A stretch of DNA of 64,000 bases from Eubacterium coprostanoligenes. GTDB lineage: Bacteria; Bacillota; Clostridia; Oscillospirales; Acutalibacteraceae. Below the pieces are notes generated by a model. That model did not search any database. It saw only the letters and a list, made by a program, of their open reading frames with translations, and was not told the DNA's origin. The first letter of the stretch is position 1. Each line of letters begins with the position of its first letter. Positions 8,335-29,135 of this stretch are shown piece by piece. The stretch covers positions 1 through 64,000 of the forward strand of contig NZ_FUWW01000001.1 of the NCBI RefSeq assembly GCF_900167205.1, in the 5' to 3' direction. The position numbers were made by a program, and so were the translations under genes.

Positions 8335-8365
8335 TCAAAAATTGAAGAAAAAGTCTTGATTTTTA

Positions 8366-8405: not shown

Positions 8406-8442
8406 TGTACAGAATTTTTTGTGAAATTGCGGATGTGAATTT

Positions 8443-13266: not shown

Positions 13267-13283
13267 ATCTTTGTTCGTCTTTC

Positions 13284-13318
13284 AAAAAAATTAATGGACA
13301 CACACTGCGTCCATTAAT
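13284..13318 (-). terminator. Rho-independent terminator of zapA
   Basis: Read on the minus strand, TTAATGGAC pairs with GTCCATTAA and is followed by seven T residues. It falls between zapA and the U32 gene, so the U32-maf pair may need its own promoter or read-through. Confidence 0.75.
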
Positions 13319-13331
13319 CGTAGTATATGGT

Positions 13332-13688: not shown

Positions 13689-13866
13689 AGTATCACCTTT
13701 TTCGTCATAATACTTCAAATTTTTATTCTCTTTTAGTATAACAATTTAATATAAAAATGTCAACATTATAAACCGATTGTGCGTTTCCATATTTTAAGTG
13801 GAAATGTTGAAAAGGATAAATGAAATTACTTGATTTTTTAACTGTAATTAAAATTTATTCTATTTG

Positions 13867-13895
13867 TTGACGGATGATATAATCGGTGATAATAT
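13867..13895 (+). promoter_or_regulatory. Promoter of the DAHP synthase gene
   Basis: TTGACG (13867-13872), 17-bp spacer, TAATAT (13890-13895). The leader is short (about 45 nt), so there is no room for a T-box or attenuator. Confidence 0.65.
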
Positions 13896-13942
13896 AATAT
13901 TACTATTATAACAAACTATAGAAGTTTTGAGAGGTGAAAAGT

Positions 13943-14983: not shown

Positions 14984-15000
14984 TAAAATTAAATTAAAAT

Positions 15001-15050
15001 ACCTGCTGTGAGTGTGCCCCAAAGCACGCTCACAGCAGGTGATTTTTTTA
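15001..15050 (+). terminator. Strong terminator after DAHP synthase
   Basis: A 17-bp stem (ACCTGCTGTGAGTGTGC against its complement, one G-U pair) with a short CCCAAA loop, followed by GATTTTTTT. Confidence 0.9.
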
Positions 15051-15118
15051 TTAGTAAACAAAATACGGCTCTCATTCGGCGTGGTTTTTGTTGCAAAAAG
15101 AGAAATTTGTATCAAAAG

Positions 15119-15136
15119 TTGTTAAATTATTGACAA
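15119..15136. promoter_or_regulatory. Rex-type operator 1 (overlaps -35 of the dehydrogenase)
   Basis: TTGTTAA-ATTA-TTGACAA matches the Rex consensus TTGTTAA-N4-TTAACAA at 13 of 14 positions. Its right half contains the TTGACA -35 box, so a bound repressor would block RNA polymerase. Rex releases DNA when NADH rises. Consensus from established knowledge; binding here is inferred. Confidence 0.7.
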
Positions 15137-15158
15137 TTTATCGCTATTGATATAAAAT
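15130..15158 (+). promoter_or_regulatory. Promoter of the LDH/MDH-family gene
   Basis: TTGACA (15130-15135), 17-bp spacer, TAAAAT (15153-15158; TATAAA overlaps it). It sits between two Rex-type palindromes. Confidence 0.65.
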
Positions 15159-15172
15159 CTAATCAAATCGAA

Positions 15173-15190
15173 TTGTTATATATTTAACAA
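15173..15190. promoter_or_regulatory. Rex-type operator 2 (downstream of the promoter)
   Basis: TTGTTAT-ATAT-TTAACAA, 13 of 14 consensus positions, located about 15 bp after the -10 and just before the AGGAGG ribosome site. It lies 54 bp (about five helical turns) centre to centre from operator 1. Confidence 0.7.
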
Positions 15191-15211
15191 TGTTTAGGAG
15201 GTAAGATAGTT

Positions 15212-16165
15212 ATGGCAAACAGAAGAGTAGCACTTGTCGGATGCGGCATGGTAGGTATGAGCTATGCTTATGCTCTTCTTAATTCCGATTTGTGCAATGA
15301 GTTAATTCTTATTGATATTAACGAGGACAAGGCAAAAGGTGAAGCTATGGACCTTAATCATGGCTTGTGCTTTTCAAGCTCTCATATGAAAATTCGTGCA
15401 GGCTCATTTGAAGACTGTGCGTATGCTGACCTCGTTGTAATCACAGCTTCGGCAGGTTCAAGAAAACCGGGCGAAACCCGCTTTGACCAGCTTAATAAAA
15501 ATGTAAAAATCTTCAAATCGTTTATTTCAAAAATCGTTGCATCGGGTTTCAACGGCATTTTCCTTGTTGCTTCAAACCCTGTTGATGTAATGACAAGAGT
15601 GACCTATGAGCTTTCGGGATTCCCGGCAAACAGAGTTATCGGCTCGGGCACAACCCTTGACACAGCACGACTTCGTTATCTCATCGGCGATTATTTTCAG
15701 GCTGACCCTCATTCGGTTCACGGCTATGTTATCGGCGAGCACGGCGACAGCGAGTTCGTTCCTTTCAGCCAGCTCAATCTTTCTACCAAAAATGTTGAAG
15801 AATTCTTCAATGATGAGAGATTTGCTAACGATTATAAGCGTGAAGATATTGAAGATATTATCGAAAAAGTTAAGAATTCCGGCGCAGAAGTTATCAAGCT
15901 CAAAGGCGCAACTTATTACGGTATCGGTATGAGCCTTGTCAGAATTACAAAGGCGATTTTCGGTGACGAAAACAGCGTAATCACTGTTTCTTCAAGACTT
16001 AACGGCGAGTACGGTATGCGTGATGTTTATCTCGGCTTGCCTGCTTATGTTAACCGCAACGGTGTCAGAAAAATCCTCCCTCTCAACCTTACAGAAGAGG
16101 AAATTGAAAAGCTCCGCAATTCGTATAATATCCTCAAGGAATCATACGACGGAATCAATATGTAA
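15212..16165 (+). CDS. NAD-dependent L-lactate/malate dehydrogenase family enzyme
   Basis: A cytosolic 2-hydroxyacid dehydrogenase (317 residues) that interconverts pyruvate/lactate or oxaloacetate/malate with NAD(H). The Rossmann motif is VGCGMVGMSYAYAL, with Asp35 of LIDIN selecting NAD; the catalytic His177 lies in GEHGDSE. Most of the sequence is LDH-like (KGATYYGIGMSLVRI near the C-terminus). However, the substrate-specificity loop reads S83-R84-K85-P86-G87-E88-T89-R90. The position of R84 is Gln102 in classical lactate dehydrogenases and Arg in malate dehydrogenases. Substrate is therefore ambiguous. The gene next door is fumarase, which would fit malate. It has its own promoter with two Rex-type operators and a terminator. 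LDH is the default family call. Confidence 0.8.
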   Translation: MANRRVALVGCGMVGMSYAYALLNSDLCNELILIDINEDKAKGEAMDLNHGLCFSSSHMKIRAGSFEDCAYADLVVITASAGSRKPGETRFDQLNKNVKIFKSFISKIVASGFNGIFLVASNPVDVMTRVTYELSGFPANRVIGSGTTLDTARLRYLIGDYFQADPHSVHGYVIGEHGDSEFVPFSQLNLSTKNVEEFFNDERFANDYKREDIEDIIEKVKNSGAEVIKLKGATYYGIGMSLVRITKAIFGDENSVITVSSRLNGEYGMRDVYLGLPAYVNRNGVRKILPLNLTEEEIEKLRNSYNILKESYDGINM

Positions 16166-16210
16166 ATCAGCACAATAAGATTGGAATCCCCTCCCGTCTA
16201 TTGTATATAT

Positions 16211-16246
16211 GCCTTCCTGTGTTATTACGGGGAGGCAATTTTTTTG
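16211..16246 (+). terminator. Terminator after the LDH/MDH gene
   Basis: GCCTTCCTG pairs with CGGGGAGGC (two or three G-U pairs) around TGTTATTA, followed by AATTTTTTT. The remaining 170 bp up to the fumC operator show no gene or recognisable RNA. Confidence 0.75.
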
Positions 16247-16416
16247 TACATCGGGGGCGTGTGGGTTGGATGTGATTGCTCCGTTTGGCACGGGTTTTAA
16301 CAATTTGTAAAAGATTTGAGCAAAGTTGTGCAGGTTTTTATCATTCAACAGGCAAAATTACGAAAAATAAAGTTTTAACGATTGCTTTTTTGTAGAAGTA
16401 TCTGAAAATGTCAAAA

Positions 16417-16434
16417 TTGTTATTTTTTTAACAA
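16417..16434. promoter_or_regulatory. Rex-type operator 3 (fumC-hdr-flx-frd operon)
   Basis: TTGTTAT-TTTT-TTAACAA, 13 of 14 consensus positions, ending 7 bp before the fumC -35 box. It puts the fumarase/bifurcation/fumarate reductase operon under the same apparent NADH control as the dehydrogenase. Confidence 0.7.
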
Positions 16435-16441
16435 TTTGCCC

Positions 16442-16470
16442 TTGATATTAGAATAACAGAAATATATAAT
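16442..16470 (+). promoter_or_regulatory. Promoter of the fumC-hdr-flx-frd operon
   Basis: TTGATA (16442-16447), 17-bp spacer, perfect TATAAT (16465-16470). No other terminator or strong promoter is seen until 26720, consistent with one ten-gene transcript. Confidence 0.75.
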
Positions 16471-16517
16471 ATAGTAGAAAAAAATTAAACCCAACCGGAT
16501 ATCAGGAGGTAAAGATT

Positions 16518-17894
16518 ATGGAATATCGTATTGAACACGACTCAATGGGCGAGGTTAAAGTACCTGCAGACAAGTATTGGGCTGCACAAACAGAGCGTAG
16601 CCACGAAAACTTCAAGATTGGCGTTGGCATCGAAGTTATGCCAAGAGAAATTACTCACGCATTCGGCGTACTCAAAAAGGCTGCTGCTATTGCAAACAAT
16701 CAGCTTAAGCCTGAAAAAATGACAGACGAAAAACTTTCTGCTATTTCACAGGCTTGTGACGAAGTTATGAGCGGTTCACTCAACGAGCACTTCCCGCTTG
16801 TTGTTTGGCAGACAGGTTCGGGCACACAGTCAAATATGAACGCAAATGAGGTTATTGCAAACAGAGGTAACGAGATTGCAGGCAAAAAGATTCTTCACCC
16901 GAATGACGACATCAATATGTCACAGTCATCAAACGATACATTCCCAACAGCTATGAGCATTGCGGCTGTTCTTGGAATCGAGGACAAAGTTTTCCCTGCT
17001 CTTGACAAGCTCATTGCAACATTCAAAATGCTTGAAGAAAAGCATCAGGGCGTCGTAAAGTCGGGCAGAACTCACCTTCAGGACGCAACTCCTATCACTT
17101 TCTCACAGGAAATCAGCGGTTGGAGATCTTCTCTTGAAAAAGACAGACGACTTCTCGAAATCGCACTTCCTGAACTTAAGGAATTGGCACTCGGCGGAAC
17201 AGCGGTAGGAACAGGTCTTAACGCACCAAAGGACTTTGATGTTAAGGTAGCAGAGGCTGTAACAGAAATCACAGGCAAGCACTTCATCACAGCACCAAAC
17301 AAGTTCCACGCTCTCACTTCAAAGGACGAAATCGTGTTTGCTCACGGCGCACTCAAGGCTCTTGCGGCTGACCTTATGAAGATTGCAAACGATGTTCGTT
17401 GGCTTGCTTCCGGTCCTCGTCTTGGTCTTGGCGAAATCAAAATCCCGGAAAATGAGCCGGGCTCATCAATTATGCCGGGCAAGGTTAACCCAACACAGTG
17501 CGAGGCTGTAACAATGGTTGCGGTTCAGGTTATCGGCAACGACACAGCAATCGGTATGGCTGCTTCACAGGGCAACTTCGAACTCAATGTATTTATGCCT
17601 GTAATTATTTACAATTTCACACAGTCTGTAAGACTTCTTTCGGAAGTAATGATTTCATTCAACGACAACTGTGCGGTTGGCATCACAGCAAACGAGGATA
17701 AGATGGCTTCAAACCTCCACAACTCTCTTATGCTTGTTACTGCTCTCAACCCGTATATCGGCTATGAAAATGCGGCAAAGACTGCAAAGCTCGCATACAA
17801 GAACAACATTTCTCTCAAGGAGGCTTGCGTTCAGCTCGGCTTCCTCACAGAAGAAAGATTTGACGAAGTTTTCCATCCGGAACAGATGGTTTGA
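16518..17894 (+). CDS. fumC: Class II fumarate hydratase (fumarase C)
   Basis: Interconverts malate and fumarate without a metal cluster. The 458-residue length, GSGTQSNMNANEV, the SGRTHLQDATP block and the signature GSSIMPGKVNP are diagnostic of FumC rather than aspartase, whose signature is similar but whose N-terminal DLLG-type sequence differs. AGGAGG precedes the ATG. It is the first gene of a ten-gene plus-strand run; hdrB starts 49 bp after its stop with no hairpin between them. Its position ahead of a fumarate reductase and downstream of a Rex-type operator suggests it works in the malate-to-fumarate direction of a reductive succinate pathway. Confidence 0.93.
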   Translation: MEYRIEHDSMGEVKVPADKYWAAQTERSHENFKIGVGIEVMPREITHAFGVLKKAAAIANNQLKPEKMTDEKLSAISQACDEVMSGSLNEHFPLVVWQTGSGTQSNMNANEVIANRGNEIAGKKILHPNDDINMSQSSNDTFPTAMSIAAVLGIEDKVFPALDKLIATFKMLEEKHQGVVKSGRTHLQDATPITFSQEISGWRSSLEKDRRLLEIALPELKELALGGTAVGTGLNAPKDFDVKVAEAVTEITGKHFITAPNKFHALTSKDEIVFAHGALKALAADLMKIANDVRWLASGPRLGLGEIKIPENEPGSSIMPGKVNPTQCEAVTMVAVQVIGNDTAIGMAASQGNFELNVFMPVIIYNFTQSVRLLSEVMISFNDNCAVGITANEDKMASNLHNSLMLVTALNPYIGYENAAKTAKLAYKNNISLKEACVQLGFLTEERFDEVFHPEQMV

Positions 17895-17943
17895 TTTCGG
17901 TAAAAATTAGAATTTTGGATTTAGGATAAAGGAGAATAGAATA

Positions 17944-18729
17944 ATGACTTTCAGTTATTATCCGGGATGCACCTTGAAAACAAAGGCGCAGGATTTGGAT
18001 AAATACGCAAGAATGTCGGCGGAGGCTCTCGGTGTTACACTTGAGGAACTCCCTGATTGGCAGTGCTGCGGCGGTGTTTATCCTATGGCAAGGGACGAGA
18101 TTGCAACAAAGCTTTCTTCCGTTCGTGCGCTCAATAAATCAAAAGAACTCGGTCACGACCTTGTAACTATGTGCTCCGCCTGCCACAATGTAATCAAGCA
18201 GGTAAACAATGATATGCTCGATGAAGAAATCGCAGACAAGGTTGCAAGATATATGAAGCTTGACGAGCCTTACAGAGGCGAAACAAATGTCATTCACTAT
18301 CTTGAAGTTTTGCGTGACAAGGTAGGTTTTGACAATGTCAAGTCAGCGGTAAAAAATCCGCTCAAGGGCAAAAAGATTGCGGCATATTACGGTTGCTTGC
18401 TTCTTCGTCCAAGCAGAGTTATGCAGATGGACGACCCTGAAAATCCTACAATTATGGAGGATTTGATTAAGGCTCTCGGTGCAACACCCGTTGTATATTC
18501 AATGCGCAACGAATGCTGCGGCGGTTACACCACCCTTGAAAACAAGGAAATTGCAAAGGCAAACGGCAACGCAGTGCTTGAAAATGCAGTTAAAAACGGT
18601 GCGGAGATGGTTATCACCGCTTGTCCGCTTTGTATGTATAATCTCAACAAGAACGCAACGGATTACGATGTGCCTGTTAAGTACTTCACAGAGGTGCTTG
18701 CAGAGGCACTCGGTTTGATTGGCGAATAA
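17944..18729 (+). CDS. hdrB: HdrB-like heterodisulfide reductase subunit (two CCG domains)
   Basis: Electron-accepting subunit of an HdrABC complex, 261 residues, with two complete CCG domains: Cys9, Cys41-Cys42, Cys77, Cys80 and Cys151, Cys191-Cys192, Cys227, Cys230. In characterised HdrB each such motif binds a non-cubane [4Fe-4S] cluster that cleaves a disulfide. All ligands are intact here. Methanogens use CoM-S-S-CoB and sulfate reducers probably DsrC; neither partner is seen in this window. Because fumarate reductase genes close the operon, electrons may instead go to fumarate, by analogy with thiol:fumarate reductase, whose TfrB subunit carries fused CCG domains. That last step is inference. 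Confidence 0.85.
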   Translation: MTFSYYPGCTLKTKAQDLDKYARMSAEALGVTLEELPDWQCCGGVYPMARDEIATKLSSVRALNKSKELGHDLVTMCSACHNVIKQVNNDMLDEEIADKVARYMKLDEPYRGETNVIHYLEVLRDKVGFDNVKSAVKNPLKGKKIAAYYGCLLLRPSRVMQMDDPENPTIMEDLIKALGATPVVYSMRNECCGGYTTLENKEIAKANGNAVLENAVKNGAEMVITACPLCMYNLNKNATDYDVPVKYFTEVLAEALGLIGE

Positions 18730-18741
18730 GGAGGGCTTGCA

Positions 18742-19128
18742 ATGGAAAATAATTATCTCAAAGAGCAGGTTATCCGTTCGGCAGGTATCAATCCGCTCAA
18801 ATGTATGGGCTGCGGCAAATGCTCGGCAACCTGTCCTTCTTATGATAATATGGAATATCATCCGCATCAGTTTGTGTCTATGGTGGCAAACGGCAACATC
18901 GAACCGCTTTTGGAGAGCGAATCACTGTACACCTGCCTTTCGTGCCTTGCTTGCTTGGAGCGTTGCCCAAGAGGCGTTGAGCCGGTAAGATTTGTTGAGG
19001 CTGTAAGAGTTGCCAAGATTCGCCGTCAGGGCGAGGAACATTTGCACCCGCAGGACATTCCCGAAATGTGGGATGAAGATTTACCTCAGCAGGCTATCGT
19101 GTCTGTAATGAGAAAGTATTGGAAATAA
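18742..19128 (+). CDS. hdrC: HdrC-like two-cluster ferredoxin subunit
   Basis: A small (128-residue) electron-transfer subunit linking HdrA to HdrB. Two [4Fe-4S] motifs are present: Cys21-x2-Cys24-x2-Cys27-x3-Cys31-Pro and Cys65-x2-Cys68-x2-Cys71-x3-Cys75-Pro. Gene order hdrB-hdrC-hdrA with gaps of 12 and 20 bp and AGGAGG-type ribosome sites indicates stoichiometric co-expression. Confidence 0.85.
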   Translation: MENNYLKEQVIRSAGINPLKCMGCGKCSATCPSYDNMEYHPHQFVSMVANGNIEPLLESESLYTCLSCLACLERCPRGVEPVRFVEAVRVAKIRRQGEEHLHPQDIPEMWDEDLPQQAIVSVMRKYWK

Positions 19129-19148
19129 GCAGGGAGGAGTAGAAAAAT

Positions 19149-21143
19149 ATGCACAGAATAGGCGTATTCGTTTGTTGGTGCGGTAGCAATATCGCCGGTA
19201 CGGTTGATGTTCATAAGGTTGCAGAAACTTTGAAGAACGAGCCGGGCGTAGTTTACTCCACCGATTATCAATATATGTGCTCCGAGGCAGGACAAAATAT
19301 GGTTAAGGACGCTATCAAGGAATATAACCTTACAGGCGTTGTAATCTGCTCTTGCTCACCTCGTATGCACGAAAATACATTCCGCAAGGCTGCTGCTTCG
19401 GTTGGTCTTAATCCGTATATGGTTGAGATTGCAAACATTCGTGAGCAGTGCTCGTGGATTCACAAAGATATGGCAACGGCAACCGAAAAGGCTGTTATCT
19501 TGGGCAGAACCGCTATTGCAAAGGTTCAGCTCAACACTCCGCTTGTTGCAGGCGAAAGCCCTGTTACAAAGCGTGCACTTGTCATCGGTGGCGGTATTGC
19601 GGGTATTCAAACCGCACTTGACATTGCCGAGGCAGGCTTTGAAGTTGATATTGTTGAAAAGTCACCTACTATCGGCGGCAAAATGGCACAGATAGACAAG
19701 ACTTTCCCGACTCTCGACTGTGCGGCTTGTATCTTGACCCCAAAAATGGTTGAGGCGGCACAGCAGGAAAAAATCAAGATTTATTCTTACAGCGAGGTTG
19801 AAGAAGTCAAAGGCTTCGTCGGCAACTTCAATGTTAAGATTAAGCGTAAGGCAAGATTTGTAAATGAGGACATTTGCACAGGTTGCGGACTTTGCACCGA
19901 AAAATGCCCTATGAAGAAAGTGCCTAACGAGTTTAATCTCGGTATGGATAACCGCAGTGCAATCTATATTCCGTTTGCACAGGCTGTACCGAAGGTTGCA
20001 ACTATCGATCCTAATTATTGTATCAAGATGAAAACCGGCAAGTGCGGACTTTGCTCAACAGTTTGTGAGGCAAAGGCTATCAACTATGATGCAAAGGACG
20101 AATTTGTTGACGCACAGTACGGTGCAATCGTTGTTGCAACAGGCTTTGAACCGATTAAGGTTGATAAGTTTGACGAGTTTGCATACAATCAGTCGCCTGA
20201 TGTTGTAACTTCTCTTGAATACGAAAGACTTATGAATGCGGCAGGTCCTACAAACGGCACACTTCTCCGTCCGTCCGACCATGAGCATCCGCATACTATC
20301 GTATTTGTTCAGTGCGTCGGCTCCCGTTGTGCCGAAACAGACCCCAAGGGCAAGCCGTATTGCTCAAAGGTTTGCTGTATGTACACCGCAAAGCACGCAA
20401 TGCTCACCCGTGAAAAATATCCTGACACTGATGTTTATGTGTTCTACATCGATGTTCGTACTCCGGGCAAGAATTTTGACGAATTTTATCGCAGAGCGGT
20501 TGAAGAATACGGTGTTCACTATGTAAAAGGTATGGTTGGCAAGGTTGTACCGGACGGCAAAAAGCTCAAGGTTCAGGCTTCTGATTTGCTCAATAACAAA
20601 CAGCTTCACATTGATGCGGATATGGTTGTTCTTGCGGCGGCTATTGAACCGTCAAAGAGCGCAAGACCTCTTGCAACAATGCTTACGGCTTCAATGGATA
20701 CAAACGATTTCTTCACAGAGGCTCACCCAAAACTCCGTCCCGTAGAATCACCTACAGCAGGTGTGTTCCTTTCGGGTATGTGCCAAGGTCCAAAGGATAT
20801 TCCCGAAACCGTATCGCAGGCTTCGGCTTGTGCGGCAAAGGTTATCGGACTTCTTGTAAAAGATAAACTCACTTGCAACCCTTGTGTTGCCCACAGTGAC
20901 GAGATGATGTGCAACGGCTGTTCATCTTGCGAAAAGGTTTGCCCTTACGGCGCAATTACATATCATGAAAAAGAATTCCGTATGCCTGACAGAACAACTC
21001 AAATCAGACGAGTTGCAAGCGTAAATCCGGCTGTTTGTCAGGGTTGCGGTGCTTGTACGGTTGCTTGTCCGTCAGGCGCAATGGACCTCAACGGATTTTC
21101 TAACAAGCAAATTATGGCGGAGGTAGATGCAATATGCAAATAG
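19149..21143 (+). CDS. hdrA: HdrA-like flavin subunit of an electron-bifurcating complex
   Basis: A 664-residue HdrA homologue, the proposed flavin-based bifurcation site. Residues 1-130 form the N-terminal cysteine-containing domain (CWCGSN, CSCSPRMHE). The FAD-binding GGGIAG is at residues 147-152, followed by GGKMAQIDKTFPTLDCAACILTPKM-type sequence characteristic of HdrA. [4Fe-4S] ligands lie at Cys243/246/249/253 and Cys291/299/302/306. Two ferredoxin motifs close the protein (CNGCSSCEKVCP and CQGCGACTVACP, about residues 598-645). The architecture matches HdrA of HdrABC-MvhADG and HdrABC-FlxABCD. The stop overlaps the start of the MvhD/FlxD gene by 10 bp. In known complexes HdrA takes a hydride pair and sends one electron to ferredoxin and one to HdrB. 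Confidence 0.88.
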   Translation: MHRIGVFVCWCGSNIAGTVDVHKVAETLKNEPGVVYSTDYQYMCSEAGQNMVKDAIKEYNLTGVVICSCSPRMHENTFRKAAASVGLNPYMVEIANIREQCSWIHKDMATATEKAVILGRTAIAKVQLNTPLVAGESPVTKRALVIGGGIAGIQTALDIAEAGFEVDIVEKSPTIGGKMAQIDKTFPTLDCAACILTPKMVEAAQQEKIKIYSYSEVEEVKGFVGNFNVKIKRKARFVNEDICTGCGLCTEKCPMKKVPNEFNLGMDNRSAIYIPFAQAVPKVATIDPNYCIKMKTGKCGLCSTVCEAKAINYDAKDEFVDAQYGAIVVATGFEPIKVDKFDEFAYNQSPDVVTSLEYERLMNAAGPTNGTLLRPSDHEHPHTIVFVQCVGSRCAETDPKGKPYCSKVCCMYTAKHAMLTREKYPDTDVYVFYIDVRTPGKNFDEFYRRAVEEYGVHYVKGMVGKVVPDGKKLKVQASDLLNNKQLHIDADMVVLAAAIEPSKSARPLATMLTASMDTNDFFTEAHPKLRPVESPTAGVFLSGMCQGPKDIPETVSQASACAAKVIGLLVKDKLTCNPCVAHSDEMMCNGCSSCEKVCPYGAITYHEKEFRMPDRTTQIRRVASVNPAVCQGCGACTVACPSGAMDLNGFSNKQIMAEVDAICK

Positions 21144-21577
21144 AGAATAATGAATTCAAGCCAAAAATTGTAGCCTTCTGCTGTAACTGGTGCTCATATG
21201 CAGGGGCTGACTTGGCAGGTACAAACAGACTTAACTATCCTGCCGATGTAAAAATCATCCGTGTGCCTTGCTCATGCAGAGTAAACCCTATGTTTATTCT
21301 CCGTGCGTTCCAAAGAGGCGCAGACGGTGTAATTATGTGCGGTTGTCACCCGGGTGACTGCCATTACACAACAGGTAACTATTATGCACGACGCAGAATG
21401 ACTCTCCTTTTCTCAATGCTTGATTATCTCGGCATCGAAAAGGGCAGAACCCGTGTTGAATGGGTATCCGCCGCAGAGGGTCAAAAGTTTGCGGAAACTA
21501 TGAACAGCTTTGTGGAAACTATCTATGAGCTTGGCGAAAATAAGAGATTGGAGGATTTGAGATGCAAGAACAAATAA
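21134..21577 (+). CDS. flxD: MvhD/FlxD-type [2Fe-2S] linker subunit
   Basis: A 147-residue MvhD-family protein that carries electrons from the NADH-oxidising part to HdrA. Conserved cysteines are C16-C17-x2-C20 (FCCNWCSYAGAD), C46/C48 (PCSCRV) and C69/C71/C76 (CGCHPGDCHY), the standard MvhD pattern. It overlaps hdrA by 10 bp and flxC by 16 bp, so the three are probably translationally coupled. The presence of this subunit without a hydrogenase (MvhA/MvhG) nearby is what points to the Flx type of complex. Confidence 0.83.
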   Translation: MQIENNEFKPKIVAFCCNWCSYAGADLAGTNRLNYPADVKIIRVPCSCRVNPMFILRAFQRGADGVIMCGCHPGDCHYTTGNYYARRRMTLLFSMLDYLGIEKGRTRVEWVSAAEGQKFAETMNSFVETIYELGENKRLEDLRCKNK

Positions 21578-22542
21578 TTGCAAAAGCAAAGGAACTCCTC
21601 CAAAACGGTACTGTTGACCGTGTTCTCGGCTGGAAAGTCGGCGAATTTAAGTACGACCTCACTCCGGGCGTGTTCACTTCGGCAGACGAGGTTGACCGTG
21701 AATTTGTTTACAACACATTTTCGGGTGCTAACCTTTCAAAATATCTTGTAAAGCAAACAAGAAAAGGCGAGGGTAAAATCGCAATTTTTGTAAAACCTTG
21801 CGATTCTTACAGCCTCCAACAGCTCATCAAGGAGCATAGAGTAGACCGTGAAAAAGTCTACATTGTCGGCATTGAATGTTTTGGCAAGACCGATATAAAC
21901 AAGATTAAAGCAACGGGACTCAGCGGTATTTCGGATATTACGGAAGCTGGTGATTCAATCGTTGTTGAAACAATTTACGGTGACAAAAAGACTTTCAAGA
22001 AGTTTGAGGTTATGGCAGAGCGTTGCCTTTCCTGCAAGAGCAAGAAAATCGTAATTTATGATGAACTTATCGGCGAAAACGGCGAAGTTCTCGATTCTAA
22101 CCGCTTTGACCAGGTTGCCGAACTTGAGGCTATGACACCTGACGAGCGCTTTGAATTCTGGCAAAACGAACTTTCAAAGTGTATCAGATGTAACGCTTGC
22201 AGAAATGTTTGCCCTGCCTGCACATGCGAAAAGTGCGTGTTTGACAACGACAATTCCGGCGTTGCTCAAAAGGCGGCTCAAACAAGTTTTGAGGAGAGCA
22301 ATTTCCACATTATCCGTGCATTCCATGTTGCCGGCAGATGTACCGATTGCGGCGAATGTTCAAGAGTTTGCCCTCAAAATATTCCGCTTCATCTTCTCAA
22401 TCGCAAATTCATCAAGGATGCCAACGAACTTTACGGTGAGTATCAGGCAGGCGAGGACGCAGACAGCCGTTATCCGCTTGTTAACTTTGATTTTGACGAT
22501 TGCGAGCCGAGCGTTGTTTATGAGAGAGGAGGACAAAAGTAA
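21562..22542 (+). CDS. flxC: FlxC-like iron-sulfur protein (FrhB/FdhB-like N-terminus plus two [4Fe-4S])
   Basis: A 326-residue protein. The N-terminal half (VKPCDSYSLQQLI, IVGIECFG) resembles the beta-subunit domain of F420-hydrogenase/formate dehydrogenase. Cysteines in ERCLSCKSKK and two ferredoxin motifs, CIRCNACRNVCPACTC (about residue 210) and CTDCGECSRVCP (about residue 255), follow. In Desulfovibrio flxABCD clusters a similar protein is called FlxC. I assign FlxC rather than FlxB from the FrhB-like part, with moderate certainty. The ribosome site GGAGG lies inside the end of flxD. Confidence 0.7.
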   Translation: MQEQIIAKAKELLQNGTVDRVLGWKVGEFKYDLTPGVFTSADEVDREFVYNTFSGANLSKYLVKQTRKGEGKIAIFVKPCDSYSLQQLIKEHRVDREKVYIVGIECFGKTDINKIKATGLSGISDITEAGDSIVVETIYGDKKTFKKFEVMAERCLSCKSKKIVIYDELIGENGEVLDSNRFDQVAELEAMTPDERFEFWQNELSKCIRCNACRNVCPACTCEKCVFDNDNSGVAQKAAQTSFEESNFHIIRAFHVAGRCTDCGECSRVCPQNIPLHLLNRKFIKDANELYGEYQAGEDADSRYPLVNFDFDDCEPSVVYERGGQK

Positions 22543-23561
22543 TGAAAAAGATTTCTATGTCACAAATCGACTCTCTTTTTAAGGCTATCGCAGAAAACGA
22601 GGCACTCTATATCCCGACCGACAAGGGCGACATTGCAGAGTTTGCAAAGTACGAGGACGGTATGACACTTACCGAAAAGTACAACACAAACCGTTCTGCA
22701 AAGGATTTCTTCTTCCCGCAGACCGAGAATTTGTACGACATTCGTATGAACGGCTTGAAGCTCGAAATCAAGGACACTCGTAAAGAGTGCGAGGATTTTG
22801 TGGTATTCGGCGTAAGAGGATGCGATGTCAGAGCGTTTGACATTCTCGACAGAGTGTTCCTTGTTGACCCGATTGATACATATTATAAGAACAGAAGAAG
22901 TCACGCAACAATTATTTCACTTGCGTGCAACCGCCCTGAAGAAACTTGCTTCTGCAACGCTTTCGGCATTGACGCTTCCGACCCGAACGGCGACATCACC
23001 GCTTGGAAGCACGGCGACACTCTTTATATGGATGCCAAAACCGAAAAGGGCGAGGCTCTTATTGCAAAATTAGGCACTGTGCTTGAAGATGCGGACACTG
23101 CTCCTGTTGAAGAAGTTAAAAGTGCGGTTAAAACGGTTATGTCAAAGCTTCCGCTTGCAAACACATCGTTTGAGGGTATGAAGCAAAGCGACCTTTTGGC
23201 TCATTTTAAAAATGAAAAATGGGCAGGACTTTCCGAGAGCTGTATCGGTTGCGGAACTTGCACCTTTGTGTGTCCAACCTGTCAGTGCTACGACATCAGA
23301 GAATTCGACACCGGCAACGGAGTAAAGAAGTTCAGATGTTGGGACAGCTGTATGTACAGCGATTTTACAAAAATGGCTCACGGCAATCCGAGAACATCAC
23401 AGCTTGAGCGTTTCCGTCAAAGATTTATGCACAAACTTGTGTATTATCCGGATAACAACGACGGTATTTTCGGTTGCGTAGGTTGCGGCAGATGTATTGC
23501 CAAGTGCCCTATTTCGATGAATATCGTTAAGGTAGAAAAAGCATTGGAGGTTGAAGCATAA
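22542..23561 (+). CDS. flxB: FlxB-like iron-sulfur protein (AsrA/HydB-like)
   Basis: A 339-residue electron-transfer protein of the 4Fe-4S dicluster family that includes anaerobic sulfite reductase subunit A and sulfhydrogenase beta subunits. The N-terminal half contains VVFGVRGCDVRAFDILDRVF, typical of that family. Ferredoxin motifs are CIGCGTCTFVCPTCQC (about residue 233) and CVGCGRCIAKCP (about residue 318). It starts on the ATG that overlaps the flxC stop (TAATG) and its own stop overlaps the flxA start the same way, so the three are tightly coupled. Confidence 0.75.
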   Translation: MKKISMSQIDSLFKAIAENEALYIPTDKGDIAEFAKYEDGMTLTEKYNTNRSAKDFFFPQTENLYDIRMNGLKLEIKDTRKECEDFVVFGVRGCDVRAFDILDRVFLVDPIDTYYKNRRSHATIISLACNRPEETCFCNAFGIDASDPNGDITAWKHGDTLYMDAKTEKGEALIAKLGTVLEDADTAPVEEVKSAVKTVMSKLPLANTSFEGMKQSDLLAHFKNEKWAGLSESCIGCGTCTFVCPTCQCYDIREFDTGNGVKKFRCWDSCMYSDFTKMAHGNPRTSQLERFRQRFMHKLVYYPDNNDGIFGCVGCGRCIAKCPISMNIVKVEKALEVEA

Positions 23562-24388
23562 TGAACAGTGAAACTTTAATTCCTCACATCGGTGTTGTTA
23601 CAGAGATTCGTCAGGACACACCCGATGTAAAAACCTTCAGAGTGAACGCACTTGAGGGCGGAAAAGTGTTTGAACACATTCCGGGTCAGTGCGCAATGCT
23701 TTCTATTCCGGGTGCAGGCGAGGGTATGTTCTCAATCACATCTTCACCTACAAACGAAGAATTTATGGAATTCAGTATCAAAAAATGCGGTTGCCTCACA
23801 TCTTGGCTCCATATGATGGATGTCGGTCAGGAAATCGCAATCCGTGGTCCGTACGGCAACGGCTTCCCTGTTGATACGGAATTTGCAGGCAAAGATTTGC
23901 TCTTTATCGCCGGCGGTATCGGTCTTGCACCGCTCCGCTCGGTAATCAACTATTGTAGAGATAACAGAGATAAATACGGCTCAATTGATATTGTTTACGG
24001 CTCACGCAGTATGGATGACCTTGTTGACTACAAGGAAATCATTGACGAGTGGTGCAAAGAGGACGGTATCAATGTTTACCTCACCATCGACCGTGAGCAA
24101 GAGGGCTGGGACGGTCATGTGGGCTTTGTTCCGAATTATGTCAAGGAACTCGGCTTCGACACAAACAAGACCTGCGTCATCTGCGGTCCGCCGATTATGA
24201 TTAAGTTTACCCTTCAGGGACTTATTGAACTCGGTTTTGAAAAAACACAGGTTTATACCACAATGGAACTTCGTATGAAGTGCGGTGTAGGCAAGTGTGG
24301 CAGATGCAACATCGGCGACAAGTATGTTTGCAAGGACGGTCCTGTGTTCCGCTGTGACCAACTTGATGAATTGCCTGATGAATACTAA
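23561..24388 (+). CDS. flxA: FlxA-like FAD/NAD(P)H oxidoreductase (AsrB/PyrK type)
   Basis: The pyridine-nucleotide entry point of the complex, 275 residues. The N-terminal ferredoxin-reductase-type FAD domain includes FSITSSP (FAD) and IRGPYGNGFP; the NAD(P) domain begins at LFIAGGIGLAPLRSVI, with CGPPIMIKFT near its end. The C-terminal CGVGKCGRC...C pattern binds [2Fe-2S], as in the dihydroorotate dehydrogenase electron-transfer subunit. NADH rather than NADPH is expected from characterised FlxA homologues; the sequence alone does not prove it. Together flxA-D replace the hydrogenase of methanogen complexes. Confidence 0.82.
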   Translation: MNSETLIPHIGVVTEIRQDTPDVKTFRVNALEGGKVFEHIPGQCAMLSIPGAGEGMFSITSSPTNEEFMEFSIKKCGCLTSWLHMMDVGQEIAIRGPYGNGFPVDTEFAGKDLLFIAGGIGLAPLRSVINYCRDNRDKYGSIDIVYGSRSMDDLVDYKEIIDEWCKEDGINVYLTIDREQEGWDGHVGFVPNYVKELGFDTNKTCVICGPPIMIKFTLQGLIELGFEKTQVYTTMELRMKCGVGKCGRCNIGDKYVCKDGPVFRCDQLDELPDEY

Positions 24389-24408
24389 AATTGGGAGGAT
24401 ATTGGATT

Positions 24409-25086
24409 ATGGGAAATAATATGGTTAATATATATTTGTTCGGCAAGAAATATTCTGTGCCGTCAAATTTGACAATAATGAAAGCAATGGAATATGCCGG
24501 CTATCAGCTCAAAAGAGGCTGTGGCTGTCGCAACGGCTTTTGCGGTGCTTGCGCAACAATCTACAGAGTTGCGGGCGACAAGGACTTAAAGGCTTGCCTT
24601 GCTTGTCAAACACAGGTTGAGGACGGAATGTACATTGCAACTTTGCCGTTCTTCCCTCTTGTAAAAGAGCCTTATGATATTGAAAAAATCAGCACAAACG
24701 AATCTATTATGATGCAACTTTATCCCGAGATTTACGCTTGCGTAGGCTGTAATGCCTGCACAAATGCGTGCACACAGGGGCTCAATGTTATGCAGTACAT
24801 TGCATATGCACAGCGTGGCGAGTTTGAAAAGTGTGCAGAGGAGAGCTTCGACTGCGTTATGTGCGGCGTGTGCTCATCTCGTTGCCCTGCCGGTATTTCT
24901 CATCCGCAGGTTGCACTTTTGGCAAGAAGAATCAACGGCAAGTATCTTGCTCCGGAAAGCAAGCACTTGACCAACAGAGTTCAGGAAATCAAGGACGGCA
25001 CATTTGAGGAGCTTCTCCAAAATCTTATGCAAAAGCCGATTGAAGAAATGAAAGAACTCTATAATAACAGAGAGATTGAGAAGTAA
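24409..25086 (+). CDS. Fumarate reductase iron-sulfur subunit (TfrB N-terminal-like)
   Basis: A 225-residue electron-transfer subunit. The N-terminal [2Fe-2S] domain has Cys38, Cys40, Cys45, Cys48 and Cys63. Two [4Fe-4S] motifs follow at Cys111/114/117/121 and Cys149/152/155/159. Classical SdhB/FrdB carries one [3Fe-4S] cluster and a different spacing. Two full four-cysteine motifs resemble the N-terminal half of thiol:fumarate reductase TfrB or HdrC. There is no CCG domain, which the separate HdrB could supply. No membrane anchor gene is near, so a soluble enzyme is expected. I start at ATG 24409 with GGGAGG ten bases upstream, not at the in-frame TTG at 24391. Confidence 0.78.
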   Translation: MGNNMVNIYLFGKKYSVPSNLTIMKAMEYAGYQLKRGCGCRNGFCGACATIYRVAGDKDLKACLACQTQVEDGMYIATLPFFPLVKEPYDIEKISTNESIMMQLYPEIYACVGCNACTNACTQGLNVMQYIAYAQRGEFEKCAEESFDCVMCGVCSSRCPAGISHPQVALLARRINGKYLAPESKHLTNRVQEIKDGTFEELLQNLMQKPIEEMKELYNNREIEK

Positions 25087-25099
25087 GGAGGCGACCGAA

Positions 25100-26704
25100 A
25101 TGTACAACAAAGAAATGCAGGAATCTATGAAAAAGGTTGCGGCAAACAGAGCGGAAAATGCCGCACTTGAACCTCGCCGTATGACTGCGGAGGAAAAGGA
25201 CACCCTCCTTGCAACCTATCACCCGGACTATAAGCAAGACCAATTTGCAACACTTCAAATCGGTCCGAATAAGGGCGAAAAAGTGCCTCTTGAGCTTGCG
25301 GATTTGCTTCAGGCTCACAGCAGAATCAACACAAAGGACATCAATCTTGACAAGGTTGACTATGATGTTGATGTTCTCATCATCGGCGGCGGCGGTGCAG
25401 GTGCATCGGCTGCGATTGAGGCAGACAACAACGGCGCTTCTTGTATGATTGTTACAAAGCTCCGTATCGGCGATGCAAACACAATGATGGCAGAGGGCGG
25501 TATTCAGGCTGCCGACAAGGAAAACGACTCCCCTGCACAGCACTATATCGACGCTTTCGGCGGCGGTCACTTTGCCGCAAAGCCTGAACTTCTTTACAAA
25601 CTTGTAAACGATGCTCCCGAGGCTATTCAGTGGCTTAACGACCTCGGCGTTGAGTTTGATAAAGCTCCTGACGGCACAATGATTACCACCCACGGCGGCG
25701 GTACATCACGCAAGAGAATGCACGCCGCAAAGGACTATTCGGGTGCGGAAATTATGAGAACTCTCCGTGATGAAGTTCAAAACAGACAAATTCCTGTTGT
25801 TGACTTTACGGCGGCTATTGAACTTATCAAGGACACAGAGGGCAAGGTTGCCGGTGCTGTTCTTCTTAATATGGAAACAGACGAAATCCTCATTGCAAAG
25901 GCAAAGACTGTCATCATCGCAACAGGCGGTGCAGGCAGACTTCACTATCAGGGCTTCCCAACTTCAAACCACTACGGTGCAACAGCCGACGGCCTTGTTC
26001 TCGGCTATCGTGCAGGCGCAAAGCTTCTTTATGCCGACACACTTCAGTATCACCCAACGGGTGCTGCTTATCCTGAACAGATTTTCGGTGCACTCGTAAC
26101 AGAAAAGGTTCGTTCTCTCGGTGCAAAACTTGTCAATGTAAACGGCGAAGTATTTATGCACCCGCTTGAAACCCGTGATGTTTCTGCGGCTTCTATCATT
26201 CGTGAGTGCTCAACAAACGGCAACGGTGTTCACACAGATGACGGCGTGGGCGTTTGGCTCGATACCCCTATGATTGAACTCAAGGGTGGCGAGGGCACAA
26301 TCGAAAAGAGAATTCCTGCCATGATGAGAATGTTCGGCAAGTACGGAATCGATATTCGCAAAGAGCCTATTCTCGTTTATCCGACCCTTCACTATCAAAA
26401 CGGCGGTCTTGACATCAAGGCTGACGGTATGACAGAGGTTGAAAACCTCTATGTTGCCGGTGAAGCTGTCGGCGGTATCCACGGCAGAAACCGACTTATG
26501 GGCAACTCACTTCTTGATGTTATCGTATTCGGCAGAAACGCAGGTAAACACGCTTCCGAAAAGTCAAAGAGCGTTGATGTTGCAGATCTCACTCTTTCTC
26601 ATGTTGACAGCTTTGAAGCAGAAATCAAGGACGCAGGCATTGAAACAGAAACTGTTTCACCAAAGCTTCTCCCGGACTATACTCGCAAAGTAAATAACAA
26701 ATAA
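25100..26704 (+). CDS. Fumarate reductase flavoprotein subunit (soluble, TfrA/FrdA-like)
   Basis: Reduces fumarate to succinate, 534 residues. The FAD Rossmann motif GGGGAGAS lies at residues 96-103, after an unusual N-terminal extension of about 90 residues. Fumarate reductase active-site positions are recognisable: His318 in QYHPTG, Glu335 in VTEK, Arg359 in ETRDVS, His431 in PTLHYQNGG and Arg465 in HGRNRLMGNSLLD. The histidine that covalently binds FAD in E. coli FrdA (in SHTVAAEGG) is Asn127 here (ANTMMAEGG), so FAD should be non-covalent. Absence of frdC/D-type membrane genes supports a soluble enzyme fed by the HdrABC-Flx proteins upstream. Last gene of the operon; AAGGAGG precedes ATG 25100. 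L-aspartate oxidase is a related alternative but does not fit the gene context. Confidence 0.8.
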   Translation: MYNKEMQESMKKVAANRAENAALEPRRMTAEEKDTLLATYHPDYKQDQFATLQIGPNKGEKVPLELADLLQAHSRINTKDINLDKVDYDVDVLIIGGGGAGASAAIEADNNGASCMIVTKLRIGDANTMMAEGGIQAADKENDSPAQHYIDAFGGGHFAAKPELLYKLVNDAPEAIQWLNDLGVEFDKAPDGTMITTHGGGTSRKRMHAAKDYSGAEIMRTLRDEVQNRQIPVVDFTAAIELIKDTEGKVAGAVLLNMETDEILIAKAKTVIIATGGAGRLHYQGFPTSNHYGATADGLVLGYRAGAKLLYADTLQYHPTGAAYPEQIFGALVTEKVRSLGAKLVNVNGEVFMHPLETRDVSAASIIRECSTNGNGVHTDDGVGVWLDTPMIELKGGEGTIEKRIPAMMRMFGKYGIDIRKEPILVYPTLHYQNGGLDIKADGMTEVENLYVAGEAVGGIHGRNRLMGNSLLDVIVFGRNAGKHASEKSKSVDVADLTLSHVDSFEAEIKDAGIETETVSPKLLPDYTRKVNNK

Positions 26705-26719
26705 GTATTAACTGAACAA

Positions 26720-26755
26720 GGCTCTCCTTGTTTGTTTTGAGGAGAGCCTATTTAT
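26720..26755 (+). terminator. Terminator of the fumC-hdr-flx-frd operon
   Basis: GGCTCTCCT and AGGAGAGCC form a 9-bp stem with an 11-nt loop, followed by TATTTATT. Confidence 0.78.
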
Positions 26756-26820
26756 TCGGTTTGTCAACTATATAGAGTGCGTTAGATGATATACTATATT
26801 GTTAATTATAAGGAGAAATT

Positions 26821-28044
26821 ATGGATTTCGGTATTGTGTCCGTTACGGGCGTAGCGTTTTTAACCTTTAGTGTGCTGGCTATTGCGGCAGTTGGCTACAC
26901 TCTCGGCAGAATTACCATTAAGGGAGTAAATCTCGGCACAGCAGGCGTGTTCATTGTTGCCCTGCTGTTCGGTGCGTTTTTGTTCCCTGTTCTTGATGAC
27001 CAGCTTATGGTGGGCGATGAGGCAGTTTCGTTCACCAAAGAAGCTCTTAAAATTATAGAAAATCTCGGACTTATTTTCTTTGTCACTTCGGTCGGCTTCA
27101 TCGCAGGACCAAAGTTTTTCAGAAATATGAAAAAGAATTTTAAGTCCTATGTTCTTTTAGGAATTGTGATTATTGCTTCCGCTTCGCTTGTGTGTGCACT
27201 TTGCGTGCTCATCGGCGGCAAGCTCACATCTGTTGACCACGAAACTTTCAAGTCAACTATGGTCGGCTTGTTTGCGGGTGCGTTGACTTCAACCCCGGCA
27301 TTCTCCGCTTCAAAAGAGGCGGTTGCCGAAATGGGCGCTCACTACGAGGACGCTGTTTCGGCTGGCTATGCAATAGCTTACCTTTTCGGTGTAATCGGCG
27401 TTGTTCTTTTCGTTCAGATTATTCCGAAAATCACAAAGGCAGATATGGCAGAGGAACTCAAAAAAATCTCTGTTGAGGCAAGCGAATCGTCAAAAAAGAG
27501 CGACGACAAAAAACTTGTTTTGCTTGACGAACTCGGCTTTACTCCGTTTTCGCTTGCAGCGATTTTGGGCGTTATGCTCGGCTCAATCAAGCTCAAGGGC
27601 TTTTCGCTTACCACAACGGGCGGTTGCATTTTGGTTGCCCTCGTGTTCGGTCACTTCGGCAGAATAGGAAAAATCAGCATTATGCCGGAGCAGTCGGTTC
27701 TCCGCACATTAAGAGAACTCGGACTTATGATGTTCCTTATAGGTGCAGGTGTATCGGGCGGTGCAAAATTCGTGCAGTATTTTGAGCCTGTGTACTTCCT
27801 CTACGGTGCGTTGCTCACACTCGTTCCGATGGTCATCGGCTATGTGTTTGCAAAATTCGTTCTCAAAATGCCACTTCTCAACAACCTCGGCTCAATCACC
27901 GGCGGTATGACAAGTACCCCGGCGCTCGGCACGCTCATCAGCGTTGCAGGCTCGGAGGATGTTGCTTCGGCTTATGCGGCAACCTATCCTGTTGCCCTCA
28001 TCAGCGTAGTAATCGCATCAAAATTGATTATTATGTTCTGTTGA
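26821..28044 (+). CDS. AspT/SucE-family dicarboxylate or amino-acid exchanger
   Basis: A polytopic membrane carrier of 407 residues. Two homologous halves each carry the family motif: GALTSTPAF (about residue 155) and GGMTSTPAL (about residue 362), with GYAIAYLFGVIGVVLF typical of the aspartate:alanine exchanger family. The usual central TrkA_C regulatory domains (full family length is about 550 residues) are missing; a short Lys/Ser-rich loop (about residues 208-235) replaces them. The family includes AspT (aspartate/alanine) and SucE1 (succinate efflux). Its position directly behind a fumarate reductase operon makes succinate export or dicarboxylate exchange a reasonable guess, not a proof. 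It has its own AAGGAG site and lies after the operon terminator. Confidence 0.72.
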   Translation: MDFGIVSVTGVAFLTFSVLAIAAVGYTLGRITIKGVNLGTAGVFIVALLFGAFLFPVLDDQLMVGDEAVSFTKEALKIIENLGLIFFVTSVGFIAGPKFFRNMKKNFKSYVLLGIVIIASASLVCALCVLIGGKLTSVDHETFKSTMVGLFAGALTSTPAFSASKEAVAEMGAHYEDAVSAGYAIAYLFGVIGVVLFVQIIPKITKADMAEELKKISVEASESSKKSDDKKLVLLDELGFTPFSLAAILGVMLGSIKLKGFSLTTTGGCILVALVFGHFGRIGKISIMPEQSVLRTLRELGLMMFLIGAGVSGGAKFVQYFEPVYFLYGALLTLVPMVIGYVFAKFVLKMPLLNNLGSITGGMTSTPALGTLISVAGSEDVASAYAATYPVALISVVIASKLIIMFC

Positions 28045-28047
28045 TAT

Positions 28048-28090
28048 AAAAAAGACGCTTCGTTCCGCATTTCACGGACGAAGCGTTTTT
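28048..28090. terminator. Bidirectional terminator between converging genes
   Basis: ACGCTTCGT-T-CCG pairs with CGG-ACGAAGCGT, flanked by A-run and T-run, serving the carrier (plus) and the thioredoxin-reductase-like gene (minus). Confidence 0.88.
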
Positions 28091-28104
28091 GAATTATTCG
28101 TTTT

Positions 28105-28965
28105 TTAGGAGAGCTTGTCTAATTCACTCAAGTATTTCACGGCACTGTGGGCGGCAATGTTTCCCTCGCCGACCGCCTTTGCAATTTGGTACGGAGTGCC
28201 TGTGCAGTCGCCTGCGGCAAAGCATCCGTCAATGCTCGTTTTCATATTTTTGTCCACAACAATACTGCCGTTTTGCACCTCGAGTTTGTTCAGCAGAACA
28301 TCCGCAGAAACAGCCTGTTTGATGAAAAATACGCCGTCAACATCAAGATTTGTGCCGTCTGCAAGCTCAATGCCCGATACCTTGCTGTCACCGATAACCG
28401 CAGTAATTATTGATTTAAGATGCGTAACATTCGCCTTGTCAATTTTCGATGTGAACTTGTGCGAATAGTAGACCTCACTTGCAAGGTCGCTCAAATATTC
28501 AACTTCTTCCTCGCCGTCTGCATTGTCGCAGAACACGGCGATTTTTTTGTCTTTGTACAACATTCCGTCACAGGTTGCGCAGTAGCTCACGCCCCTGCCG
28601 AGAAGTTCTCGTTCCTTCGGCAACGGCTTGATTGTTTCAGCGCCGAGGCATAGAATAACAGACCTTGCTTCAAACATTTTGCGGTTTGCAAGCAGGGTGA
28701 ATTTGTCTTTCATATTATATATACCCGTGATTCGTTCCTCGGTGATTTCAATCCCCATTGAGTCGAGATGTTCACGCATTTTTGCGTTCAGTTCTTTGCC
28801 CGAAATATTTGGCAAACCCGGATAGTTGTTGATTTTTTCCGATATTTCTACCTTGTGCGAAAGCTCGTTTTGACCGAACAGCACAATGGATTTGTTCCTG
28901 ATTTTGCAGTTGATTGCCGATGAAATTCCCGCAGGTCCACTGCCGATGATTGCAACATCAAACAT
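28105..28965 (-). CDS. Thioredoxin-reductase-like flavoprotein lacking the NADPH motif
   Basis: A flavin disulfide reductase of 286 residues. The FAD motif GSGPAG is at residues 8-13, the redox CATC of SYCATCDG is near residue 130, and the C-terminal FAD block is AGDCTGTPYQIAKAVGEG. The second nucleotide-binding site is degenerate: where NADPH-dependent TrxB has G-G-G-x-S/N-A and later H-R-R, this protein has FCDNADGEEEVEYL and SHKFTSK. That resembles the pyridine-nucleotide-independent (ferredoxin-linked or diverged) flavin thioredoxin reductases described in clostridia. It is also slightly short (TrxB is about 310). AAAGGA ribosome site. The electron donor is therefore probably not NADPH; ferredoxin is the best guess. 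Confidence 0.78.
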   Translation of the reverse strand: MFDVAIIGSGPAGISSAINCKIRNKSIVLFGQNELSHKVEISEKINNYPGLPNISGKELNAKMREHLDSMGIEITEERITGIYNMKDKFTLLANRKMFEARSVILCLGAETIKPLPKERELLGRGVSYCATCDGMLYKDKKIAVFCDNADGEEEVEYLSDLASEVYYSHKFTSKIDKANVTHLKSIITAVIGDSKVSGIELADGTNLDVDGVFFIKQAVSADVLLNKLEVQNGSIVVDKNMKTSIDGCFAAGDCTGTPYQIAKAVGEGNIAAHSAVKYLSELDKLS

Positions 28966-29000
28966 AGCGTCACTTCCTTTATAATATTTATATAATATTT

Positions 29001-29029
29001 ATTATACCACATCTTGAATTTAATTTCCA
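29001..29029 (-). promoter_or_regulatory. Promoter of the thioredoxin-reductase-like gene
   Basis: On the minus strand, a weak TGGAAA, 17-bp spacer and TATAAT, 36 bp before the start codon. Confidence 0.45.
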
Positions 29030-29050
29030 TTGATAACAAAATTTAGTATG

Positions 29051-29079
29051 TTGCCTTTTTTTACAATTTGTGATAATAT
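29051..29079 (+). promoter_or_regulatory. Promoter of the glucosaminidase-like gene
   Basis: TTGCCT (29051-29056), 17-bp spacer, TAATAT (29074-29079). It lies divergently to the promoter at 29001-29029. Confidence 0.55.
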
Positions 29080-29135
29080 ATATGCAGAAAGTTACAAATT
29101 GTAATAATTTGAATGCTTCACACAGGAGGTACAAA

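Follow-up and report, generated by a model that had tools for sequence, protein, structure and literature searches.

The first 64,000 nucleotides of contig NZ_FUWW01000001.1 of Eubacterium coprostanoligenes (assembly GCF_900167205.1), referred to here as the window, belong to contig C14 of a genome of 1.82 Mb (99% complete), and hold a cluster that raises the question of why the genes of a soluble fumarate reductase (frdB and frdA) should stand beside those of a whole FlxABCD-HdrABC unit. Ten reading frames, all on the + strand, run in the order fumC-hdrB-hdrC-hdrA-flxD-flxC-flxB-flxA-frdB-frdA from position 16518 to 26704. A sequence-only reading of the window had taken them for a candidate electron-bifurcating fumarate reductase, and the ten genes, their order, strand and named families were all borne out by reading frames and family scans (Table 1). 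Sequence comparisons suggest that the cluster probably carries the genes of the reductive route leading from malate to succinate, together with an electron supply of its own, in which Flx-Hdr would bifurcate the electrons of NADH to ferredoxin and, via FrdBA, to fumarate.

The Flx-Hdr part was complete in content, with FlxA, FlxB, FlxC and FlxD encoded together with HdrA, HdrB and HdrC; the Flx proteins were assigned by domains and gene order, no curated Flx model scoring over its cut-off. HdrB had two CCG motifs, and all ten of its cluster cysteines (C9, 41, 42, 77, 80 and C151, 191, 192, 227, 230) were invariant in 16/16 aligned sequences. Its top NCBIfam match was the SdhE model (144.7 bits, cut-off 500), followed by the CoB-CoM HdrB model (143.5 bits), and it was the sole match in a CCG-domain search of its own genome. 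The 8 cysteines of HdrC were invariant in 17/17. HdrA, with an FAD fold, an insert and C-terminal ferredoxin clusters, matched the solved HdrA 5odc over its full length (E 7e-204), and 31 of its 34 cysteines were invariant in 17/17, including all 8 of the C-terminal ferredoxin domain. The invariant cysteines of FlxC (17/17 rows) exceed the need of two clusters, and four of them lie in the N-terminal half.

The partner of this unit, FrdB, is about 225 aa long and without a PF02754 (CCG) domain; its cysteines C40, 45, 48, 66, C111, 114, 117, 121 and C149, 152, 155, 159 were invariant in 19/19. The catalytic residues of FrdA were intact and likewise invariant in 19/19, and fumarate as the substrate, as earlier supposed, fits both these active-site residues and the C4-dicarboxylate genes in the neighborhood. 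FrdBA was rejected as an ordinary complex II (quinol:fumarate reductase or succinate dehydrogenase), having no covalent-FAD histidine, no anchor and no 3Fe motif. Asn132 of FrdA occupies the aligned position of that histidine (19/19). An absent cysteine in a motif marks the 3Fe site of complex II, and FrdB had two complete four-cysteine motifs in 19/19, so the [3Fe-4S] signature was lacking. No anchor gene was found within the cluster, in agreement with the sequence-only reading. FrdB and HdrB were also rejected as a member of the TfrAB family, the chains being split, with FrdB devoid of a CCG domain and HdrB separate. A search among the sequences of solved structures with the aligned FrdBs gave weak, fragmentary matches only, including Rnf subunit C, HdrC and the FrdB of quinol:fumarate reductase, and a Foldseek search with its predicted structure gave TM-scores ≤0.31 by query length.

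The same gene order was recovered elsewhere. The nine-gene core (hdrB-hdrC-hdrA-flxD-flxC-flxB-flxA-frdB-frdA) was found in 16 of 19 loci of the family (frdA runs off the contig in L031), the others being two frdBA pairs without hdr and one locus cut by a contig end. It was found in 17 of 20 further loci, of which 19 belong to the order sample (one being a member of the same family) and one to the phylum sample; frdA was in two pieces in L131, one locus was cut and two had frdBA alone. Among the best 80 named loci the core was present in 62, a figure biased towards conservation because these are the closest matches only (the nearest named relatives being Oscillospiraceae and Ruminococcus metagenome-assembled genomes); in the other 18 the contig stopped within 42 bases and cut the locus off. 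Since the same core recurs in family, order and named loci, the cluster is not a product of chance. The 62 full named loci included fumC in 58, a transporter gene in 48 and an mdh-like gene in 41, and in 7 of the 19 family loci a transporter gene followed frdA at gaps of 11–128 bp. The phylum loci (n = 20) were more varied: one full set with hdrC preceding hdrB, three with frdBA-hdrBCA-flxDCBA, three with hdrC-hdrB-frdB-frdA without hdrA or flx, two with hdrCB and an extra hdrA, and 11 with frdBA without adjoining hdr. In one FrdBA-HdrBC gene order, a Dcu transporter is encoded downstream and, in 2/3 loci, aspartase upstream. The distribution of the operon is patchy: of the 150 family genomes sampled, 20 have FrdB, and the two others that belong to the same genus both lack it. 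On a contig labelled uncultured Treponema (L198), frdB was 81% identical, a case of mis-binning or transfer.

In the family sample (n = 150), HdrA (E up to 1e-60) was detected in 18 genomes, every one of which also had FrdB; the two were adjacent in 17 of these and on different contigs in G085. FrdB occurred in 54/295 genomes of the order and in 39/398 of the phylum. HdrB (E up to 1e-50) was found in 150 of the 398 phylum genomes, and its best scores formed two classes separated by a gap (261 vs 237 bits), the line being drawn after the gap was seen and only some candidates per genome being scored. FrdB was present in 28/28 genomes with high-scoring HdrB, compared with 5/122 with lower-scoring HdrB and 6/248 without HdrB, raw counts that ignore kinship and that come from a search model built from Frd-linked HdrBs; by family the figures were 11/11 for the high-scoring class vs 3/44. 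Judged from coordinates, which stood alone for 13 of the 28 genomes, HdrB and FrdB lay within ~10 kb in 20/28 and farther apart or on other contigs in 8/28, part of which may be explained by contig fragmentation. An unrooted quick tree of HdrB (n = 57) placed nine sequences behind a long branch (support of 100 in the Shimodaira–Hasegawa-like approximate likelihood ratio test, SH-aLRT, the only support computed for this tree and that of FrdA); eight came from separate hdr units and one from the two-HdrB locus L114. The 48 others, which include five from genomes with frdBA elsewhere, share T10, V83 and H118 (48/48) and Y195 (47/48), marks that are absent from the nine and three of which adjoin cluster cysteines. 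These co-occurrences of HdrA and of high-scoring HdrB with FrdB uphold the claim that FlxABCD-HdrABC is tied functionally to the soluble Frd pair, and the sequence evidence for an operon link between Flx-Hdr and FrdBA is strong. There is roughly an even chance that such HdrBs form a distinct subfamily whose natural acceptor would be fumarate and not a disulfide, with two non-cubane clusters passing electrons to FrdB, and that HdrABC-Flx-FrdAB would be a bifurcating NADH:fumarate, ferredoxin oxidoreductase in at least 11 of the sampled phylum families, including genomes in which frdBA is distant from hdr.

From homology and gene linkage we infer, at every step, the following electron path. NADH would be oxidised at FlxA and its electrons led via FlxB, FlxC and FlxD to the HdrA flavin, where the pair would be split, one electron reaching ferredoxin at the C-terminal ferredoxin domain of HdrA. 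The second would pass from HdrC to HdrB, on through the Fe-S chain of FrdB to the FrdA flavin, and reduce fumarate to succinate; the HdrB clusters would then serve as a wire to FrdB, in place of or besides a disulfide-reducing role, and reduced ferredoxin would drive Rnf. The scheme supposes physical contact between HdrB and FrdB, a reaction in this direction, and bifurcation. With standard potentials of +33 mV (fumarate) and -320 mV (NAD), as given in PMC5861303, the drop of ~350 mV from NADH to fumarate can pay for ferredoxin reduction.

Some occurrences weigh against such a dedicated system. No HdrA or HdrB was findable in six genomes with frdBA (G319, G047, G062, G798, G493 and G490), and in nine more the hdr genes lay only elsewhere than frdBA, HdrB being of the Frd type in G789, G632, G607, G769 and G513 and of the other type in G462, G502, G456 and G800. 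The sequence-only reading had named frdAB found routinely apart from hdr-flx as a point that would speak against it; this was found in part, in 11/20 phylum loci and these six genomes. Because frdBA occurs without Hdr, FrdBA can be described as a plug-in module, and by its distribution it seems to draw electrons from several donors, of which Hdr would be one, contrary to a fixed complex. Neighbors of lone frdBA were fumarase (by model) and malic enzyme, pyruvate carboxylase or sucCD (by eye). An NrfH-like cytochrome gene lay slightly upstream of frdBA in one locus (L117:8714-9304; 74 bits, cut-off 134), and a protein encoded downstream in another (L119:2927-3910) was in part formate-dehydrogenase-gamma-like (61 bits, cut-off 116). 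The latter and L120:2653-3639, also downstream of frdBA, have cysteine-rich, Fe-S-like starts, a possible quinone-linked input to FrdBA. On the quick FrdA tree the Hdr-linked state changed at least 6 times, with L031 and L131 left out (short match), L118, L040, L140 and L039 as long branches, and L041 labelled linked though its hdr side was unseen (contig ends truncate both L041 and L121).

The same chain could also work as a non-bifurcating NADH:fumarate oxidoreductase, HdrA giving both electrons to HdrB and ferredoxin remaining uncharged. Bifurcation is proven by no sequence feature and gene linkage fits this enzyme equally; it is nevertheless unlikely in view of the full-length likeness of HdrA to solved Hdr, the invariance of its eight C-terminal ferredoxin cysteines and the presence in the genome of an Rnf complex able to use ferredoxin. 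To be doubted to the same degree is a Flx-Hdr whose acceptor is a disulfide, either small or in a protein, in line with the proposal for the Desulfovibrio enzyme, with FrdBA served by its own donor and the operon shared through common fermentation. The intact CCG cluster sites of HdrB would suit such a role, as would the existence of FrdBA without Hdr and beside cytochrome-like genes; it leaves unaccounted for the constant company of high-scoring HdrB and FrdB, including the eight genomes in which they are not close together, and the 3 loci in which hdrCB adjoin frdBA without hdrA. Moreover, Tfr oxidises thiols via its CCG domain, and FrdB is without one.

Every step being reversible in principle, succinate might instead be oxidised, driven by reduced ferredoxin and yielding NADH (confurcation), and sucCD-like genes were seen by eye beside frdBA in phylum loci L106 and L114. 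This is very improbable here, as fumC, the mdh-like gene and the AspT/YidE-type antiporter fit a pathway that makes and exports succinate, and PFOR occurs with a PPDK-like gene (by eye), as in sugar fermenters. That FrdA is L-aspartate oxidase (NadB) or another enoate reductase is hardly credible at all. The NadB model was second best for FrdA (278 bits), but the NadB-type glutamate is replaced by His203 in 19/19, and among the neighboring genes in the various loci are those for fumarase, aspartase and Dcu and, as judged by eye, for malic enzyme and pyruvate carboxylase as well as sucCD. The glutamate of the TREGG-type motif of NadB recognises aspartate, and it is present in the only other full-length PF00890 flavoprotein of the genome, a separate NadB-like protein whose gene adjoins a nadC-like gene (names by eye). 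NadB was thus rejected as the identity of FrdA, and bifurcation to ferredoxin and fumarate is preferred over these alternatives.

The genome has a complex that could use reduced ferredoxin. Its Rnf cluster extends across two contig ends (rnfC by model, other genes by eye), PFOR is encoded, the PPDK-like gene lies at 33213-35855, and a genome search for the [FeFe] hydrogenase catalytic domain found none. On contig C32 (L225:457-4901), NuoE-like, NuoF-like and NfnB/GltD-like flavoprotein genes, the last with an N-terminal [2Fe-2S]-like start, were seen by eye, a trio that resembles an Nfn/Stn-type electron-bifurcating transhydrogenase.

Neighboring genes hdrA/flxD overlap by 10 bp, flxD/flxC by 16 bp, and flxC/flxB and flxB/flxA by 1 bp each. 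Comparison with relatives moved the start of frdB from TTG 24391 to ATG 24409 and that of frdA from TTG 25076 to ATG 25100; with these ATG starts frdB and frdA are ~13 bp apart, so that the overlaps of 1-16 bp reported earlier stand for the four pairs just named and not for frdB/frdA. The single promoter and single terminator that were also claimed have candidate sites and are plausible only, because sites of this kind are no rarity here (36 promoter-like ones found, 18.6 expected). The unit is probably larger than these ten genes, the mdh-like gene upstream and the transporter gene downstream recurring in relatives. The mdh-like gene, fumC, Frd and the transporter thus place the route from malate through fumarate to succinate and its export in nearly a single stretch. 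A Gln-to-Arg swap at the specificity position of lactate dehydrogenase (LDH) confers malate specificity, and the mdh-like protein has arginine there, as do 9/9 relatives with a gene in the mdh slot. Those proteins are 38–41% identical to that of the window, which perhaps stands in for them. Export of C4-dicarboxylate by the AspT/YidE-type antiporter is a guess. An Rfam search of 13000-30000 gave zero matches. Next to the operon, at 28105-28965, the opposite strand carries a gene that by eye resembles thioredoxin reductase, and three large secreted-looking proteins are encoded at 342-9615, two with a terminal dockerin-like motif (by eye).

Table 1. Positions of the cluster genes and flanking features in the window.
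Feature	Position	Strand	Description	Evidence
mdh-like gene	15212-16165	+	LDH-family protein, predicted malate dehydrogenase	NCBIfam LDH models over cut-off
Promoter-like site	16442-16470	+	TTGATA-17-TATAAT, best match before fumC	Consensus match only
fumC	16518-17894	+	Class II fumarase	TIGR00979, 712 bits (cut-off 665)
hdrB	17944-18729	+	Two CCG domains	PF02754 in two stretches
hdrC	18742-19128	+	Dicluster [4Fe-4S] protein	TIGR03290 (under cut-off), PF13183
hdrA	19149-21143	+	FAD protein with insert and C-terminal ferredoxin domains	HdrA2 model, 791 bits (cut-off 1100)
flxD	21134-21577	+	MvhD/FlpD-like	PF02662, 8e-56
flxC	21562-22542	+	Fe-S protein	Fer4_8; 15 invariant cysteines
flxB	22542-23561	+	AsrA/sulfhydrogenase-beta-like Fe-S protein	PF17179; ShyB, HydB, AsrA models under cut-off
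flxA	23561-24388	+	FAD/NAD(P)H-binding protein, [2Fe-2S] motif	PF00970, PF00175, PF10418; AsrB-like
frdB	24409-25086	+	[2Fe-2S] domain and HdrC/SdhB-like dicluster domain	Fer2/Fer4
frdA	25100-26704	+	Fumarate-reductase-type flavoprotein (TfrA-like)	PF00890; best NCBIfam TfrA, 346 bits (cut-off 718)
Terminator-like stem	26719-26749	+	12 pairs, 3' of frdA	Pattern match only
Antiporter gene	26821-28044	+	AspT/YidE-type, candidate C4-dicarboxylate exporter	TIGR01625, 155 bits (cut-off 72)

If bifurcation to fumarate is correct, soluble fumarate reduction would save energy in fermenting gut bacteria without a quinone-linked fumarate reductase, the charged ferredoxin being turned by Rnf into an ion gradient, and this would explain how such Clostridia profit from making succinate, one of the main products in gut and rumen. 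HdrABC would then serve a non-thiol acceptor, and the HdrB class would predict which genomes use the system, even with the genes apart.

The coupling itself is plausible and not new, having already appeared in print. A coupling of fumarate reduction with ferredoxin has been put forward for the 'succinate operon' of Pseudoclostridium thermosuccinogenes, for which the article cites a 2019 preprint of Koendjbiharie and van Kranenburg, Preprints 201912.0288 (PMC7282089). That operon comprises fumarate hydratase, Flx-Hdr under tags RS03360-30 (seven if the tags rise by five as usual), fumarate reductase under two tags, and a hypothetical protein that may be a succinate transporter (PMC7282089). By this description it resembles the present cluster in combining fumarase, Flx-Hdr, two Frd genes and a transporter; the organism differs, and P. 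thermosuccinogenes was not among the best 80 named loci. Tubeworm symbionts and Thioflavicoccus likewise have Hdr-Flx genes next to a fumarate reductase of the TfrAB type; there flxABCD-hdrABC are interspersed with tfrAB and korABCD, and a single complex is suggested (PMC6315080). Those systems differ in belonging to Gammaproteobacteria and in serving carbon fixation by the reductive tricarboxylic acid cycle with 2-oxoglutarate:ferredoxin oxidoreductase, not fermentation (PMC6315080). An frdA/sdhA gene beside hdrA is mentioned for Thiomargarita relatives in part of a further article (PMC4914600). In the literature searched, neither a biochemical test of the P. thermosuccinogenes or symbiont proposals nor the phrase 'bifurcating fumarate reductase' was found. 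The wide genomic survey, the class of HdrB and the use of FrdBA as a module are new here.

Among characterised relatives of the parts, TfrAB of methanogens supplies the best NCBIfam match of FrdA (TfrA), and its TfrB model is matched in part by FrdB and in part by HdrB. TfrB is one chain, whereas FrdB and HdrB are separate here, with HdrC, HdrA and Flx as the would-be electron supply. The precedent of TfrB for an HdrB-like CCG route, invoked in the sequence-only reading, therefore applies in split form and not as stated, because FrdB is without a CCG domain. The Desulfovibrio vulgaris FlxABCD-HdrABC has the same seven protein types as the cluster here; Ramos in 2015 reportedly proposed a disulfide acceptor for it, in a unit without fumarate reductase. 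SdhABE (8-methylmenaquinol:fumarate reductase, MFR) likewise combines a flavoprotein, an Fe-S protein and a CCG protein, and is membrane- and quinol-linked by its family name, whereas the present cluster has no membrane part and Flx proteins instead.

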